From assembly GCA_030595185.1 (NCBI GenBank), contig JAUVDT010000009.1:1-37739 (forward strand): 37,739 nucleotides of DNA, given 5' to 3'. Both the position numbers and the translations under genes were made by a program. The notes under the pieces are model-generated. The model was not told where the DNA came from and did no database searches. It saw only the letters and a program-made list of their open reading frames with translations. This document shows positions 674-10,616 of this stretch, in pieces; the first letter of the stretch is position 1; each line of letters begins with the position of its first letter. Origin of the DNA: Gammaproteobacteria bacterium. Lineage in GTDB: Bacteria; Pseudomonadota; Gammaproteobacteria; SZUA-229.

Positions 674-2626
674 ATGGTTCATAATGTTTCCTTTAGCATT
701 GAAAATCAGGCAAAAATACATGCTGAGCAAATGTCTCTCATCGATAAAGAGTCTGTTGTATCAATCATTGGTGGTCTATGTACGGCGATATTTTATACGT
801 ATGTATTGAACGACAAAGTTCCATCCAATATATTATATATCTGGTTATCGATAATCAGTGTTGTTTATGTATTACGCTGGATAATAACCAGATACATCTA
901 TCCACTAAAAAATGCGCCAGAGAGTAATAGCTATAACTGGGAAAAAGTATACGTGCTGGGCACTGCGATTGCGGGAGCATGTTGGGGTGTAGGTAGTTAT
1001 TACATCTTTCCTGAGGATAACGTATTACTTGAAGCTGTCATTGTATTAACAATTGGCGGTCTTGTAGCTGCTGCATCGGTTGCTTATTCACCCAGTCGTT
1101 ATATTGGCTTTGCCTTTGCTTTTCCTGCAATAATTCCATTAAGTGTTTACTTTTTTTCAAAGCCCGGAAATGAATTTTTTTATATGGGTATGCTGATTTC
1201 AATTTATTTAGTGGTTATGGCAGCATCTAATCGCATGATGCATATTTCTAGCTCAAAAAGTATCAAATTAAAATTCAAAAACCAGGGGCTAATTGAAACC
1301 CTAAAAAATAAAATTATAAAAATTGAAGATATGTCGGGTGAAATGTCCTATCAGGCTTCTCACGATATGTTAACTGGTTTGGTAAATCGACGTGAATTTG
1401 AATCGATTTTAGAGAAAGCAGCTCATCATGTGACAATAAGTAAGAGAACATATGTTGTTTGTTATATTGATCTGGATGATTTTAAAATTATCAATGATAC
1501 TTGTGGGCATGTGGCGGGTGATGCCTTTATACAAAGTGTTGCTAAGTTGATAGATGAAACAACCAGAGGTACAGATCGCGTAGCGCGTATTGGTAGTGAT
1601 GAGTTTGGTTTATTGTTGCCAATGTGCAATATTGGAAAAGCTTGTGAAATTGCCGATGAAATTCGTAAAAAAATAAAAGCATTTGAGTTCTTGTGGGAAA
1701 ATAAACGACTGGATCTCAGTGCCAGTATAGGTTTGGTCGAAATAAATGAAAACACAACGAATATGTGTGATGTGTTGAAATCGGCAGATGCTGCCTGTTA
1801 TGTTGCAAAAGAGTTAGGTAAAAATAGAATTAGTGTTTTTAAAGAAGATGATGTAACTCATACGCGACATATAGATGATCTGCAAGGAGTGCAAGCCGTA
1901 AAAAAATCACTTTCTGAAGATCGCTTTGTTCTATATGCCCAGGAAATACGTTCAACAAGCAATGATGAAATAAAGTGGCATGGTGAACTATTAGTGCGGA
2001 TGCTAGGTGAGGATGATGAAATTATTCCTCCCGGAAAATTTATACCGGCAGCGGAGCGATACAACTTAATGACAGAAATTGATAAATGGGTTATTAATGA
2101 GTCCTTTGACTACGTCAAAAAATTGGAAGAAAAGTACAAAGGGTCTGTGTTGTGTGCAATCAACTTATCAGGTCAGTCAGTTTGTGATAAAGATTTTTTT
2201 GAGTATATTTTGGCTAAATTCATAGAGAAAAAAATATCTCCATTATCAATATGTTTTGAAATCACAGAAACCGCAGCAATTTCAAATTTTTTACATGCTG
2301 AAAAACTACTGAGAGAATTAAAGTTGATGGGTTGCCGTTTTTCGCTGGATGATTTTGGTAGTGGTCTGAGTTCGTTTGGCTATTTAAAAAGATTGGATGT
2401 GGATTATTTAAAGATTGACGGAAGTTTTGTTAAAACGATGATGGACGATGTTAAAGACTATGCCTTGGTGAAATCAATCAATCAAATCGGTAAAGAGATG
2501 GGAATGAAGACGATAGCTGAGTTTGTAGAAAATGAAGAATTACATAACGCTCTTATCGAACTAAATGTAGATTATGTGCAGGGTTATGGTATTGCCAAAC
2601 CGGTTCCGTTAAGCTCATTGATATAA
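674..2626 (+). CDS. Membrane GGDEF/EAL protein (c-di-GMP turnover)
   Basis: 650 aa; hydrophobic N-terminal TM region; GGDEF domain with RIGSDEF in place of GGDEF; EAL domain with ELLVR, NLSGQS, FEITET, LDDFGSG, YLKIDGSFV, AEFVE, QGYGIAKP. Confidence 0.93.
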   Translation: MVHNVSFSIENQAKIHAEQMSLIDKESVVSIIGGLCTAIFYTYVLNDKVPSNILYIWLSIISVVYVLRWIITRYIYPLKNAPESNSYNWEKVYVLGTAIAGACWGVGSYYIFPEDNVLLEAVIVLTIGGLVAAASVAYSPSRYIGFAFAFPAIIPLSVYFFSKPGNEFFYMGMLISIYLVVMAASNRMMHISSSKSIKLKFKNQGLIETLKNKIIKIEDMSGEMSYQASHDMLTGLVNRREFESILEKAAHHVTISKRTYVVCYIDLDDFKIINDTCGHVAGDAFIQSVAKLIDETTRGTDRVARIGSDEFGLLLPMCNIGKACEIADEIRKKIKAFEFLWENKRLDLSASIGLVEINENTTNMCDVLKSADAACYVAKELGKNRISVFKEDDVTHTRHIDDLQGVQAVKKSLSEDRFVLYAQEIRSTSNDEIKWHGELLVRMLGEDDEIIPPGKFIPAAERYNLMTEIDKWVINESFDYVKKLEEKYKGSVLCAINLSGQSVCDKDFFEYILAKFIEKKISPLSICFEITETAAISNFLHAEKLLRELKLMGCRFSLDDFGSGLSSFGYLKRLDVDYLKIDGSFVKTMMDDVKDYALVKSINQIGKEMGMKTIAEFVENEELHNALIELNVDYVQGYGIAKPVPLSSLI

Positions 2627-2631
2627 TGAGT

Positions 2632-2650
2632 TGGGTTTATAAAAAACCCA
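2632..2650 (+). terminator. Candidate terminator after GGDEF/EAL gene
   Basis: TGGGTTT-ataaa-AAACCCA stem directly after stop codon; only a delayed T-run. Confidence 0.45.
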
Positions 2651-2663
2651 GGTAGGAATTTTT

Positions 2664-2911
2664 TGTAGGTTGGGGTGAGAATGCGAACCCCAACTTTTAA
2701 AGAATAAGTCAAAATAGTCGGTCGACTATCTGCGCTGTTGACTTTGATCTTATTTAATAATTGGGAGAAGCTCAGCTCGTAGACCTCATCTACGTGACAG
2801 ACTTTACGCCTTAGGTTGGGTGCAGATTCATCACACTCCCTGATAAACTATTAGCTAAACAGTTTATCGAGAGAGATACAAGGTTGGGTTGAGGAACGAA
2901 ACCCAACAAAG
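2664..2911. repeat. Cluster of TAGGTTGGG...CCCAAC palindromic elements
   Basis: TAGGTTGGGGTGAGAATGCGAACCCCAAC (2666-2694) and AAGGTTGGGTTGAGGAACGAAACCCAAC (2880-2907), with a GTCGGTCGAC-containing palindrome between. Confidence 0.65.
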
Positions 2912-2933
2912 AATTTATCCATATAACCAGTAT

Positions 2934-2987
2934 TTACTCATCTGGTTTCATTTCAATTTCTAATGTTTCTCCATTATCGAGCTTCAT
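2934..2987 (-). CDS. Possible 17-aa micro-ORF MKLDNGETLEIEMKPDE
   Basis: ATG on minus strand with AAGGA about 6 nt upstream; in-frame upstream stop; absent from supplied ORF track because of length. Confidence 0.2.
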   Translation of the reverse strand: MKLDNGETLEIEMKPDE

Positions 2988-3191
2988 TTGTCGTCCTTGT
3001 TTTTATTGATTTCTATACTGACAATAAATAGCTAATACCACAATAGTTATTTATGACCTACTTATGTCCATTTAATTCGTTAATAGTGCGTTAAGTCACT
3101 GATTTTATATATAAAGCATCTATACTTGATGTTAAATATAATAATAAGTTCTATAACATAGCCAATTACACTGGCTTAGCAGTACTAAAGA

Positions 3192-4565
3192 ATGCATTTA
3201 CTTAATCATATAAATAGTTTAATTAACTGGTTTCAGCCAGATCAAACCCTTATTGAAAAGCTGTCTGTCGGCAAGCATGAAGGTGCGCGTTTATGTCGGC
3301 TTAATATAATTACATCATTAATTACTTCTATTGTTATTTTCATTATGTTTTTGATCAGGATGAAAATTGAAGGTTTGATGAGTGTTACGCTTTATAGTCT
3401 TCTTGCTGCAAGTATCATTATTTCTACATTACCTTTTATTATAAAGCGAACTGGTAAATATCAGATTGCTAATATTGTTATTGTCACTATTGCGCTTATT
3501 GTTATTCCTATCCGTATTATTGACACTGGGGGGCTCAGTTCTGCTGTATTAAGCTGGTATCTAGGAGCGTGTCTGATTTTTTTTGTTATTGGATCTACAA
3601 GGCTGGGTATCATTGCCTATGTGATTTCAATCTTTGAGTTGTTTATGATTTACCTGGCGATAAAATTATCCTGGGTGACGATTGTATTTAAGCCATCTGA
3701 TGATGTTCAGTTCTGGGTTTTTAGTTTAGCGCTCACATTGAGCATTGCTGTTATTTATTGGTATGAAAAGCAGCGGTTGAAAAATATTCAGGAACTGAAA
3801 GAGAAGAATCAAAAAATATCTTCCGATAATAAATTGTTGGCGACCCAAAAATTTAAGCTTGAAAGGGCTAATCTGGATAAGTCGACTCTGCTTAATGTAC
3901 TGTGCCATGATATTGGAAACCCGCTTCAGGTTATTCTTTCATTTGCGGAATTTATAGAAGATGATCAGCCTGAGAACCCTGAAGTGAAAAATATTATTAA
4001 AGGGGCTACTGTCATTAATCAAGTTATTGATCATGTAAGGTTGCTCCAGGTTGCTGACACTAAGGCTAACGGTCTGGAATTGTTGCCTGTTAAACTCAGT
4101 GAATGTATTGAGCAGGCCATTTTTATTTTTGATAACAAGCTTCAGGAAAAAGAACTGTCGATTAGCTATGACAAAGCTTTAATGGAAAAAATGGCTGTAA
4201 TTGCAGAACCTGTTTCGCTGAGTAATTTTGTTATTAACAATATTTTTTCTAATGCCATTAAGTTTTCAGAAAAAGGCAGCACTATTAATGTTAATGCTGT
4301 AATTGATAATGAATTTATTCATTTATCGATACAGGATCATGGTATTGGTATGCCACCGGAAATTTTAGATAATTTGTTTATTGTCAGTAAATTAGCAACT
4401 CGTCCCGGTACACAGGGTGAAACAGGCACTGGTCTGGGCATGAAAGTGATGAATTCTTATGTTAATAGTTTTGGTGGGCGTATTGAGATTGAATCTGTGT
4501 CACAAGATATTGATACGCGTAATCACGGTACAACGTTTCATATCTGGCTAAAAAATGGAGAATGA
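3192..4565 (+). CDS. Sensor histidine kinase with 6-TM N-terminal input region
   Basis: 457 aa; about 6 hydrophobic segments; H-box CHDIGNPLQ; N-box NNIFSNAIKF; G-boxes DHGIGMP and GTGLGM; no REC or HPt. Confidence 0.88.
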   Translation: MHLLNHINSLINWFQPDQTLIEKLSVGKHEGARLCRLNIITSLITSIVIFIMFLIRMKIEGLMSVTLYSLLAASIIISTLPFIIKRTGKYQIANIVIVTIALIVIPIRIIDTGGLSSAVLSWYLGACLIFFVIGSTRLGIIAYVISIFELFMIYLAIKLSWVTIVFKPSDDVQFWVFSLALTLSIAVIYWYEKQRLKNIQELKEKNQKISSDNKLLATQKFKLERANLDKSTLLNVLCHDIGNPLQVILSFAEFIEDDQPENPEVKNIIKGATVINQVIDHVRLLQVADTKANGLELLPVKLSECIEQAIFIFDNKLQEKELSISYDKALMEKMAVIAEPVSLSNFVINNIFSNAIKFSEKGSTINVNAVIDNEFIHLSIQDHGIGMPPEILDNLFIVSKLATRPGTQGETGTGLGMKVMNSYVNSFGGRIEIESVSQDIDTRNHGTTFHIWLKNGE

Positions 4566-4691
4566 CTTGATGAAAATATATTTTTTTCAAACGCTAGCTA
4601 TAAGATAAATTAAAACACTATAGCTGCCTAATTATAGCTGAAGTGTTTATTGATTCTGTCTGATGAAACTGGAATTAATGTATCTAATAAA

Positions 4692-5741
4692 TTAGATCGT
4701 TTCTGTATTCACATCTTCTTTTTTATTTTGTACTTCTGAGGTAGATCGTCGATCACTTGCTTTACGACGGTCATGTTTAATAGATAATCCTTGATTATCA
4801 ATAAACGGAAGTTTTACAGCATTGAGTACTCGTCTGTCTTGCTTGGTGCGTAATACACGATTACGCCCACTGTCTGTAGCGGTTTTTTTGCGGCGTCTAT
4901 CTTGCGCAAATACCAGTCGCTCCATAATACGTATTTCTCGTTTTGTCAGGTTTAGTGCGGCTTCTACCCATATCTTTGTTATATCAAGTAATTCATCATA
5001 AGAGATCGGACTGAAGCGTTGTCTTGCTGCGTTAATTGCTCTTAAACCATTGCTCGATCGAGAATGTTGTTTGATATATTGACTAACTGTTTGTTTGCCT
5101 TCGCCATCTTCAGCCAGTACGTCGACAACACCTATTTCATATAACTCATCTGCTCGATACACTTTTCCTGAGGTGATCATTCTTTCTGCTTCGACTATGC
5201 CAATACGACGTGCAAGTAAACTGTAAGCGCCCATACCGGGAAAAAGATTAAACAGAATTTCTGGCAAGCCAAGTTCAGCACTGCGTTCGGCAATTAAAAT
5301 ATTGCTGGAAAGTGCCGCTTCAAACCCACCGCCAAGTGCCGATCCTTCAACAAGCGATATAGTAGTAAGTGGTCGATGCATATTGACTGCGTTGTTATAT
5401 AAAATATCGATACAAGATGTTGCGTATTGAAGCAGATGATCACGATCCTTATTTAAGATATATTCTGCAAATAAATTAAGGTCACCCCCTAGGTTAAATG
5501 TATTGGGAACCTGAGAAGCAGTAATAATATAGTTTATTGGATATAATGCTGAAAATTGTGGTGATTCAAAACTATCAAAAATTGATTGTTGTAATTGTTT
5601 TAACTCAGACAATAAGGTTGGTGTGATGCATGGCCTAGGTTGTGGGTTCATGTAACACCACAAAGAGCCCTGATCAGGATCATAACGAATATTTAGTTGT
5701 TCGTAATTTTTGAGAATAGGATTTAGTTTATTAGGCGTCAT
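4692..5741 (-). CDS. rpfF: RpfF-like crotonase-fold DSF synthase with C-terminal DRR-rich extension
   Basis: FNLGGDLNLF, ALGGGFEAALS, GLPEILFNLFPGMGAYS and IWVEAALNL match the RpfF pattern; the two Glu (FEAAL and GLPE) are 20 residues apart as in RpfF. Confidence 0.83.
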   Translation of the reverse strand: MTPNKLNPILKNYEQLNIRYDPDQGSLWCYMNPQPRPCITPTLLSELKQLQQSIFDSFESPQFSALYPINYIITASQVPNTFNLGGDLNLFAEYILNKDRDHLLQYATSCIDILYNNAVNMHRPLTTISLVEGSALGGGFEAALSSNILIAERSAELGLPEILFNLFPGMGAYSLLARRIGIVEAERMITSGKVYRADELYEIGVVDVLAEDGEGKQTVSQYIKQHSRSSNGLRAINAARQRFSPISYDELLDITKIWVEAALNLTKREIRIMERLVFAQDRRRKKTATDSGRNRVLRTKQDRRVLNAVKLPFIDNQGLSIKHDRRKASDRRSTSEVQNKKEDVNTETI

Positions 5742-5968
5742 ATCAACTGCAACTTTTTAATGTTTGTATTAAAGTTTTTATTATTATAAATAGACTATAG
5801 AAGAGAACTTCTAATCTCTCCATTATAATTACGTTTTATAGGATAAAAGAGTAATAAAAAGGGTATTAAAGGTTGGAATAATGCTAAATACTTATCATTT
5901 GTATTAAATTATTTTGTTTTTTAGTAATAATTAAAGGCAGGCCTATACGGATATGAATCTCCCCCAGT

Positions 5969-6360
5969 TTAACGGATACTTTTAATCAGAGGCAAAAGTC
6001 TCTTATTAATGCCTTGAAAATATTCATTACCATTGATGAGTAATGCGATAAATACTAACGTCATAATAATGCCTGCGTAAACGGCGACATGAATCAGACG
6101 TAGCCAGACTGTTAGTAGTGCCAGATTTTTATTGACCTCTCTTAATAAAACATACAACACCCGTGCTACGGTGATATCCAGAATTATCATGATGATGTCA
6201 CTGGCTATACTCAGGCGAAATAAAGATTCAGAGGCTTGCAGGTTTTTAAAGGTGGCGTTAGCGTCATTAGGGATGATCAGTTGCATACGAAAAAAAACTC
6301 GGCGAAGATGCCAAGTACAATAATGCCGAGATAACTAATGCCGCCGATAATAGCTATGTT
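5969..6360 (-). pseudogene. DUF4386-like membrane protein remnant
   Basis: ORF 5969..6286 (ASESLFRLSIASDIIMIILDITVARVLYVLLREVNKNLALL) resembles DUF4386. N-terminal IIGGISYLGIIVLGIFAEFF lies in another frame, broken at an 8-A run (6290-6297). C-terminus also short. Confidence 0.6.
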
Positions 6361-7009: not shown

Positions 7010-7894
7010 ATGAAACGAATTGTTTACTTTTTGCTAACCAATATAGCCATCATGCTGGTATTAAGTGTGGTGTTACAGCTATTAGGTGTTGAATCTATCC
7101 TTCAAAATAATGGTACAGATCTGGATCTACAGGCTTTATTGATCTTTTCAGCCGTATTTGGAATGGGTGGTTCTTTCATCTCTTTAATGATGTCTAAATG
7201 GATGGCAAAACGTATGAGTGGGGCTGAAGTTATTAAGCGGCCTCGTAACGGTACTGAACAGTGGCTTGTGGACACTGTGCAACGACTGTCTCAAAAAGCG
7301 GGCATAGGTATGCCGGAAGTTGCTATTTTTCATACTGAGGAAATTAATGCCTTTGCCACGGGTATGAGCCGTAATAATGCCCTGGTAGCTGTGAGTAGTG
7401 GTTTACTGAGTAATATGAGTGAGAATGAAGCAGAGGCGGTTATTGGGCATGAAATTGCTCATGTGGCGAATGGTGATATGGTAACGCTGACTTTGATTCA
7501 AGGTGTTGTTAACAGTTTTGTTATTTTTATTTCACGTATTGTTGGTTTCTTTGTCGATCGTGTATTGCTTAAAAATGAACGTGGGCATGGCATGGGTTAT
7601 TACATTGCCTCATTTGTTGCGCAAATTGTCTTTGGTATTTTAGCAAGTGGTATTGTGATGTACTTCTCTCGCTGGCGTGAATTTAGAGCAGATGAGGGTG
7701 GTGCTGAATTGGCGGGTACTCGTAATATGATTGCGGCGCTTGAGAAATTAAGGCGTAATTCTGGTGCCAGTGAAATGCCTGAGCAAATGGCTGCTTTTGC
7801 TATTTCTGGTGGAACAAAAAGTAGTTTTAAAAAGTTTTTTATGAGTCATCCTCCTTTAGAGGATAGAATCAGGGCTTTAAAAGCAACGTTGTAA
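7010..7894 (+). CDS. htpX: Membrane zinc metalloprotease HtpX
   Basis: HEIAH motif, [41 protein letters not shown]-terminal SHPPLEDRI. Confidence 0.97.
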
Positions 7895-8528: not shown

Positions 8529-10616
8529 TTAGCCTGCCATTTCTGAGAAGTCGTAATTCAACTCTGCCATTGGCTCTTGTAAGAAATTACCTTGAATGAA
8601 GTTAACACCCATCCCCCAAAGTACAGATAAGCTGCTGGCATCATGAATACACTGTGCGATAGTGAGCTTACCCATTTTAGTTGCTGTTTCTGTTATGTTT
8701 TTAACAGTTTCCTGATTTTGAGTATTGGTAGAAAGCTTGTCCATAAATGAGCTTTCTATTTTCAGGTAGTCAACAGGAATATGTTTTAATAACTGGAATG
8801 GATTCATACCAGTGCCGAAATCATCTAATGCGAAGCCACAATCAAGAGCGGCCAGACCTTCACCTAATGCTTTAGATTGTTTAAGGTTGGTGACGGCAAC
8901 TGATTCTTTTATTTCAAAAATAATGGCGTTTTTATTAATATTTGCAGCATGAATTTTTTGTTCTAGCCATGGCAGTAATTTTTCATCACGTAATGATGCT
9001 TCGCTGAGCTTAATAAAGAACTTAGTATCTTTCTTGGCTTTTTTCTGTGCCATTAATACTTTTAGTGCGTTGCTAATAACCCAGCGATCAACTAAAGGCA
9101 TTAAGCCACTTCTTTCTGCAGCAGGAATGAAATCATCAGGCATAATTATTGCACCTTTTTTATCTTTCATTCGTACATAAACTTCGTAACGCTCTTCTAT
9201 ATCACCATGCAAACTTATGACAGGCTGATAATTAAGAACAAACATGTCATTTTTAAGAGCAGCTAATAATGCGCTTGATACTTTTGTGTCGACTTCTTTC
9301 TGTGTTAGCTCACCTTCTTTAGGAACATAGACAGAAACTTTATTGGGGCCTAATGCTTGTGACTCTTCGGCTGCTTTTTCTGCACGTAAAAGAATTTCAC
9401 TGGATTCAGGAGATTCTTTCTCAATTAAACTGATACCGATAGTGCACGTTGTATTTGTTTTTGTGCCATTAATTTCTGTGTTGAACTGTTCAATGGCTTC
9501 TCTTAATTTGTTACCATAAGTTTCAGCGTCTTTACGATTTGATTTTTCATGAATGATGGTGAAATTATGGCCATCAAATCGAGCCAGTACATCATTGGCA
9601 CTGCATATTTTTTTCAGTAACTCTGCAATATCGATTAATAATTGATCACCGCCAATAACACCGAGTTTGGTTTTCATGTCGTGGAAGTTATCTAAGCTTA
9701 AGTAAAGCAGGGCAGACTCAGTTTTGTCTTTTTTCGCTTTAGAGATTATTTTTTCTAAAGAGTCGAGGAAAAACTGTCGGTTATAAAGGCCTGTAACCTG
9801 ATCGCGTTGACTCAATAAGTTGATTTGTTTTTCGAGTTCTTTTTGGTCTAATTCATTTCGAATAATAATTTGAATACAAGGCTCACCATCAATTGAAGCA
9901 GGTGAAAATTCTATTTTACCGTTGAATTCAGTACCGTCGGCATTTTTCATACCGCTTTCGAAAGATTCTATTGTTGATTTCTTGCCATAATTACGCAAAA
10001 ACTTTTTGAAGTTATTTTGATCATCGCTGCTGACCATATCCAGAATCGGAGTACCTTCTAAATCTTCATTTTCTTCGAAACCAAATAGTTCAAGGTAAGA
10101 TTGGTTGGAGTAAATGTGCATACCTTCATGAATATAAGCAATGGCGTCACGTGAACTGTCCATTAACGATTCAATGCGTTTCTTACTTTCAAGATAAGCG
10201 ACTTCTATCTTTGCGAGTCGCTTGTTGTTTTTAATTTGCAATAACTCACGGTGAAGTACATTTTTGAGGTGTGCTTCATTATTAAGGTCTATTTGATCAT
10301 TTGCGCCCTGAGACATGACAAGGTCTAAGTCATTGGCATTACCTTCTCTGCAAGCGGTAAGCACGGAGGTAGTATTAATAAGCTTATGATCTGTAAGAAT
10401 TTTAATTGTGCTTGGCAGGTCGATAAGCTCCATGCCATTGCTATAGATTAAAAGATCTGGAGTGGTTTTTTTAAGTGCTTCTTCTAGGTCTTCATCATCT
10501 TCTACACGAACTGAGCGTGCTGTAGTACCTAAACTACGGATGGTGCTGACTAGTTTTTCTTCGTTGTTGAAAGAATCGTCAATCACAATCATGTTGACGG
10601 ATGTTTCTTTACTCAC
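8529..10616 (-). CDS. FimX-like REC-PAS-GGDEF-EAL protein, catalytically degenerate
   Basis: N-terminal REC-like, PAS (DSSRDAIAYIHEGMHIYSNQSYLELFGF), degenerate GGDEF (ARFDGHNF), EAL domain with EVYVR, IKLSEAS, FEIKES, LDDFGTG, AQCIHD. Confidence 0.85.
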   Translation of the reverse strand: MSKETSVNMIVIDDSFNNEEKLVSTIRSLGTTARSVRVEDDEDLEEALKKTTPDLLIYSNGMELIDLPSTIKILTDHKLINTTSVLTACREGNANDLDLVMSQGANDQIDLNNEAHLKNVLHRELLQIKNNKRLAKIEVAYLESKKRIESLMDSSRDAIAYIHEGMHIYSNQSYLELFGFEENEDLEGTPILDMVSSDDQNNFKKFLRNYGKKSTIESFESGMKNADGTEFNGKIEFSPASIDGEPCIQIIIRNELDQKELEKQINLLSQRDQVTGLYNRQFFLDSLEKIISKAKKDKTESALLYLSLDNFHDMKTKLGVIGGDQLLIDIAELLKKICSANDVLARFDGHNFTIIHEKSNRKDAETYGNKLREAIEQFNTEINGTKTNTTCTIGISLIEKESPESSEILLRAEKAAEESQALGPNKVSVYVPKEGELTQKEVDTKVSSALLAALKNDMFVLNYQPVISLHGDIEERYEVYVRMKDKKGAIIMPDDFIPAAERSGLMPLVDRWVISNALKVLMAQKKAKKDTKFFIKLSEASLRDEKLLPWLEQKIHAANINKNAIIFEIKESVAVTNLKQSKALGEGLAALDCGFALDDFGTGMNPFQLLKHIPVDYLKIESSFMDKLSTNTQNQETVKNITETATKMGKLTIAQCIHDASSLSVLWGMGVNFIQGNFLQEPMAELNYDFSEMAG

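Follow-up and report, generated by a model that had tools for sequence, protein, structure and literature searches.

The 349-residue protein encoded at positions 4692–5741, on the minus strand of the window (the whole stretch of 37,739 nucleotides analysed here, which is the entire contig C9 of a 2.17 Mb draft genome, 69% complete), is a genuine member of the RpfF family of DSF synthases, an assignment on which family models, the tree, the residues of the pocket, and the fold agree. Its signal is probably read not by the histidine kinase encoded convergently next to it, but by an RpfC-type hybrid kinase encoded at an unlinked position in the same genome, on contig C69.

Several features characterize the protein as an RpfF. 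A sequence-only reading of this DNA had recognized an RpfF-type protein by the motifs GGGFEAAL and GLPEILF, and the two glutamates that they carry are indeed found 20 residues apart, as E141 and E161, with the same numbering as in Xcc RpfF. Their status as a hallmark is another matter: both outgroup crotonases carry them too, and they are therefore not specific to RpfF. The most discriminating of the pocket residues that were compared is W258, which is present in all 73 RpfF rows that have a residue at that position and in neither of the two ordinary crotonases used as outgroups. When the seven residues G85, L136, G137, G138, M170, W258, and L276 from the published list of the DSF synthase pocket (PMC9864630) are taken together with E141 and E161, all nine are identical, with the same numbering.

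The window protein scores 383.5 bits with the NCBIfam model NF006452/PRK08788, above the cut-off of 177. With the xanthomonad RpfF equivalog NF053515, it reaches 205.8 bits for a cut-off of 550. The latter cut-off is lineage-narrow, because the RpfF of L041, which belongs to the window's family and is linked to rpfC and rpfG, scores 261 bits and is also below 550. In a 76-row tree, the window protein lies inside the RpfF family with the enzymes from Xanthomonas, Stenotrophomonas, and Burkholderia and with that of structure 7zq7, and not among ordinary crotonases, from which the family is separated by a split supported at 100/98. Its nearest relatives are the RpfF proteins of L047 (66% identity) and L048 (62%), with which it forms a clade (100/100).

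The nearest solved structures by sequence are 5fus, 6dgn, 7zq7, and 3m6m (E-values of 1e-55 to 1e-49), and the next crotonase structure after these four DSF-synthase sequences follows at 1e-15. An AlphaFold model of the protein has a mean pLDDT of 79, with core blocks mostly between 82 and 96. When this model was compared with the PDB using Foldseek, all 12 DSF-synthase chains ranked first (E-values of 1e-25 to 1e-21, target-based TM of about 0.9), and ordinary crotonases followed only from 1e-14; the fold is thus closest to that of DSF synthases. The best of these matches are BCAM0581/DfsA of Burkholderia cenocepacia (5fus) and the RpfF of Cronobacter (6dgn). Both of these enzymes pair with RpfR, a PAS-GGDEF-EAL protein, whereas no RpfF-linked RpfR was found here. 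A PAS-GGDEF-EAL gene is located at 8529–10616, and its orthologue is syntenic in G001 and G002, both of which lack RpfF. The RpfF of Xanthomonas campestris (3m6m/3m6n) and RpfF-1 (7zq7) share with the window protein the crotonase fold, E141/E161, the pocket residues, and the tree family. The window copy is about 36–38% identical to them and differs by an extra basic C-terminal tail and by the lack of an adjoining rpfC or rpfG.

This rare tail covers about residues 288–349 (positions 4695–4880, minus strand). It is some 60 residues long, basic, and follows the pattern R..DRR..(FP/LPF)..(H/N)xG..(D/N)RR....RR. Model confidence is low in this region, with pLDDT values mostly of 41–64 from residue 281 onward. 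Among all the ORFs of the loci that were retrieved, a profile of the tail matched 13 proteins, all of them RpfF: those of the window, L047, and L048, and those of ten loci of the window's family.

DSF-synthase activity and the nature of the signal are assigned to the window protein by analogy. As for characterised RpfF enzymes, its substrate would be 3-hydroxyacyl-ACP drawn from fatty-acid synthesis. BCAM0581 is a bifunctional dehydratase/thioesterase that converts 3-hydroxyacyl-ACP into cis-2-enoyl-ACP and then into the free acid (PMC4504480). If the window enzyme works in the same way, it would dehydrate 3-hydroxyacyl-ACP to cis-2-enoyl-ACP and hydrolyse the latter to release a free cis-2-unsaturated fatty acid. 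This fatty-acid signal would then most likely be sensed by the RpfC-type kinase of C69, a pairing that we infer, and the output of the circuit may be c-di-GMP, the membrane GGDEF-EAL protein encoded at 674–2626 (plus strand) being a candidate link. In Xanthomonas, the N-terminal sensor region of RpfC binds DSF, which activates autophosphorylation (PMC5391125).

The gene convergent to rpfF, at 3192–4565 on the plus strand and separated from it by 126 bp, encodes an orphan membrane histidine kinase of 457 residues. The sequence-only reading had described it as a convergent multi-TM kinase devoid of REC and HPt, with a GGDEF/EAL gene upstream. This description holds: about 6 hydrophobic helices precede the H-box, HisKA and HATPase_c are the only domains given by Pfam, and the upstream gene is the one at 674–2626, in which Pfam recognizes both GGDEF and EAL. 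The same reading went on to propose that this kinase is a reduced DSF receptor paired with RpfF, and this part is not supported. When its membrane input was compared with a profile of 33 RpfC input sequences, no similarity was detected (hhalign probability of 0.2, and of 0.1–0.2 over all such comparisons), whereas RpfC-type kinases outside the profile scored 98.8–99.9. The idea that the window kinase is a shortened RpfC was rejected on this basis. Its input gives a weak match to MASE7 (E-value of 0.01), and the protein resembles generic membrane HisKA kinases in its HisKA and HATPase domains and possibly in a MASE7-like input. A kinase tree in which it was included, with a branch of length 10, was set aside for the question of its placement.

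A more elaborate form of the proposal is that the convergent kinase is a reduced DSF sensor of a non-RpfC type, whose phosphate would go straight to a response regulator from another locus. DSF receptors that are not homologous to RpfC do exist, including BCAM0227 and RpfR (PMC4504480), and the kinase adjoins RpfF in the convergent orientation known for rpfF/rpfC. Nevertheless, we consider this proposal very improbable. Besides the unrelated input, no response regulator lies beside the kinase, and no orthologue was found in the sets of 58 relatives, 369 class genomes, and 399 phylum genomes, which overlap, or in plasmids. More precisely, searches with the full-length protein gave no hit among 57 relatives (threshold 1e-25) or 398 further genomes of the phylum (1e-30), the membrane region gave none among 368 further genomes of the class (1e-4), and plasmids likewise gave none (1e-20). 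The pairing with RpfF, for which synteny in relatives had been suggested as a check, thus recurs nowhere in these sets, and the RpfF proteins closest to that of the window, those of L047 and L048, are accompanied by a true RpfC instead.

The context of the two genes also bears on their pairing. In three genus mates, the gene order of the contig is largely kept from position 7010 on, and different genes are found opposite 674–6286. The edge of this variable segment is marked by an M48 peptidase gene (7010–7894, plus strand), the first of the block that is syntenic in the genus mates. Between this block and rpfF lies a short DUF4386 ORF (5969–6286, minus strand), which matches positions 23–112 of the 210 in the Pfam profile PF14329; covering about half of the family model, it is likely the remnant of a decayed gene. 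Because other genes occupy this place in the genus mates, the GGDEF-EAL, kinase, and RpfF genes and the DUF4386 remnant constitute a lineage-specific segment. The kinase and RpfF may have arrived together in it, which would be consistent with a functional pair. However, the genus mates share the remainder of the contig but not the GGDEF/EAL-kinase-RpfF stretch, so that the two genes probably converge by coincidence within a variable segment, and the kinase looks like an unrelated sensor carried by it.

A mis-binned contig was ruled out as an explanation for this segment, given the largely conserved gene order from 7010 to the end and a chorismate synthase, encoded on the same contig, that is 92–94% identical to the copies of the genus mates. 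As for RpfF itself, its identity of 66% to a gene from another taxonomic family, compared with 42–52% to homologues from its own family, suggests from sequence that it was acquired by horizontal transfer.

A better receptor candidate than the convergent kinase is found in the same genome on contig C69 (44089–46146), and its presence further weakens the pairing proposed by the sequence-only reading. It is a kinase of 685 residues composed of an RpfC-type input, HisKA, HATPase, REC, and Hpt, the last being borderline (23.1 bits, just below the cut-off of 24.6). This kinase is the one strong match in its own genome to the input of the L047 RpfC (E-value of 6e-32), and its domain order, and nearly its spacing, are those of that protein. 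Compared on its own, its input region aligns with the profile of RpfC inputs at a probability of 99.3 (E-value of 1e-20). In a 53-row kinase tree, it belongs to a five-member clade (SH-aLRT 99) together with the RpfCs of L047 and L048 and with kinases from G031 and G003, although on a long branch (2.26), and all five genomes of this clade carry RpfF. The domain content is also that of the RpfC of RpfC/RpfG systems, from which the C69 kinase differs by its size (linked RpfCs typically have 830–900 residues) and by being unlinked to RpfF. No match to RpfG was obtained in the 18 kb around it. We thus regard the C69 kinase as a good receptor candidate, and as no more than that. With a convergent neighbour that is no relative of RpfC and a much better candidate on another contig, this case shows how weakly adjacency combined with two catalytic glutamates supports the pairing of a signal with a receptor.

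The distribution of RpfC-type inputs calls for some caution. Among the 58 relatives, all seven genomes with such an input at an E-value of 1e-31 or better, a threshold chosen post hoc, carry RpfF. Weaker RpfC-type inputs occur in 11 relatives devoid of RpfF, and such an input alone is therefore no proof of DSF sensing. These RpfF-less kinases include L116:6193–8199 and L118:4646–6655, in addition to those of nine further relatives; the two named examples, which were examined, form a separate branch. It is possible that they are eavesdropping receptors, or that they respond to another ligand. In most genomes of the window's family that have a tailed RpfF, no RpfC-type input reached the threshold applied, and tailed synthases may thus act without RpfC. 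Another receptor could also be missing from the 69%-complete window genome.

A different partner for the synthase would be the membrane GGDEF-EAL protein encoded at 674–2626. According to this alternative, the signal is made and is directly perceived by that protein, which would act through c-di-GMP with a logic similar to that of RpfR. A membrane GGDEF-EAL gene is conserved beside tailed RpfF in L030, L033, L034, L035, and L037, and the membrane domain of the window protein matches theirs (hhalign probability of 96, E-value of 3e-9). This match is non-specific, however, because the membrane domain is found in 42 of the 58 relatives, in up to 10 copies. The idea that the window protein is specifically related to the GGDEF-EAL proteins linked to tailed RpfF was thus rejected, its membrane domain being one of a large paralogous group. 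In addition, its gene lies 2 kb from rpfF, with the kinase gene in between. We therefore regard a direct receptor role of the GGDEF-EAL protein as unlikely, and the C69 kinase is retained as the preferred receptor candidate.

Most of what is known about DSF signalling comes from plant and opportunistic pathogens. RpfF relatives were detected in 64 of 369 gammaproteobacterial class species genomes, mostly beside RpfC, and the system thus looks common outside those pathogens. At the 57 RpfF loci with enough flanking sequence, an RpfC-like kinase is encoded within three genes of RpfF in 43, in convergent (35), divergent (6), or identical (2) orientation. Convergence with RpfC is therefore the common layout, and one that the window does not have. 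In L047 and L048, RpfF stands in divergent orientation to an actual RpfC, complete with HisKA, HATPase, REC, and Hpt. The genome holding the closest relative of the window RpfF, G137, also contains a second RpfF (L049:7379–8138), which is cut by the contig end and groups with the clade linked to ketoacyl synthase (KAS) and methyltransferase genes.

In the window's family, tailed RpfF genes are mostly divergent from genes for a FabF-like ketoacyl-ACP synthase and a CMAS-type (cyclopropane-synthase-like) methyltransferase. This arrangement is seen, without RpfC, in L029, L030, L033, L034, L035, L037, and L039, with an ACP also present in L030 and L039; a membrane GGDEF-EAL gene is near most of these loci. 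In a survey of about 400 genomes, the methyltransferase family was found in 8 of the 58 relatives and in 2 of the 369 class genomes, representing three taxonomic families, and all 10 carry RpfF. Two complete rpf loci from two other taxonomic families, L094:7671–15152 (G116) and L098:7728–15019 (G393), harbor the KAS and methyltransferase genes between rpfC and rpfG, accompanied by an ACP in L094. Such an arrangement suggests a DSF signal whose acyl chain is modified.

Gene neighbourhoods of this kind can be read in two other ways. First, the window protein could be a biosynthetic crotonase or thioesterase devoted to lipid or natural-product chemistry, and not to quorum sensing. The RpfF-like genes of relatives do adjoin genes for a ketoacyl synthase, an ACP, and a methyltransferase or, in L027, for a P450 and a fatty-acyl-AMP ligase. 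None of these biosynthetic genes adjoins the window RpfF, however, which groups with the RpfC-linked proteins of L047 and L048, and in L094 and L098 the KAS and methyltransferase genes are part of complete rpf loci. A purely biosynthetic role thus seems unlikely. Second, the tail-bearing RpfF subfamily could be tied to a new class of chain-modified DSF, in which a ketoacyl-ACP synthase dedicated to this purpose and a CMAS-type SAM methyltransferase, in some cases with an ACP, would yield a methyl-branched or cyclopropanated cis-2-enoic acid. The methyltransferase was not found in the window genome as assembled, which led us to reject the presence of a KAS/methyltransferase cluster there; the modifying enzymes would have to be lost or unassembled. 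For the window, this second possibility is put forward tentatively, as less likely than a DSF-family synthase whose signal is read by the C69 kinase. Our literature search found no report linking rpfF with cyclopropane or methyltransferase chemistry relevant to this locus. As a lead to new DSF structures, the KAS/methyltransferase rpf loci of the relatives are more novel than the window locus.

Finally, two loci of the genus mate G003 deserve mention. In L027 (4926–9313), an untailed RpfF comes immediately after the genes for a cytochrome P450 and for a fatty-acyl-AMP ligase that includes an ACP domain, in the order P450-FAAL-RpfF-MoaB. The window genome retains the P450 and the ligase (L124:1617–5658), with an endonuclease-like gene at the site where L027 has RpfF. 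As the RpfFs of the two genomes also belong to different clades, the G003 locus was rejected as the source of the window RpfF. The other locus, L114:6476–8143, encodes a naturally reduced RpfC of 432 residues, which consists only of an RpfC-type input, HisKA, and HATPase and is preceded by a separate single-REC protein. It corresponds to the sort of reduced receptor proposed by the sequence-only reading, but in a relative.
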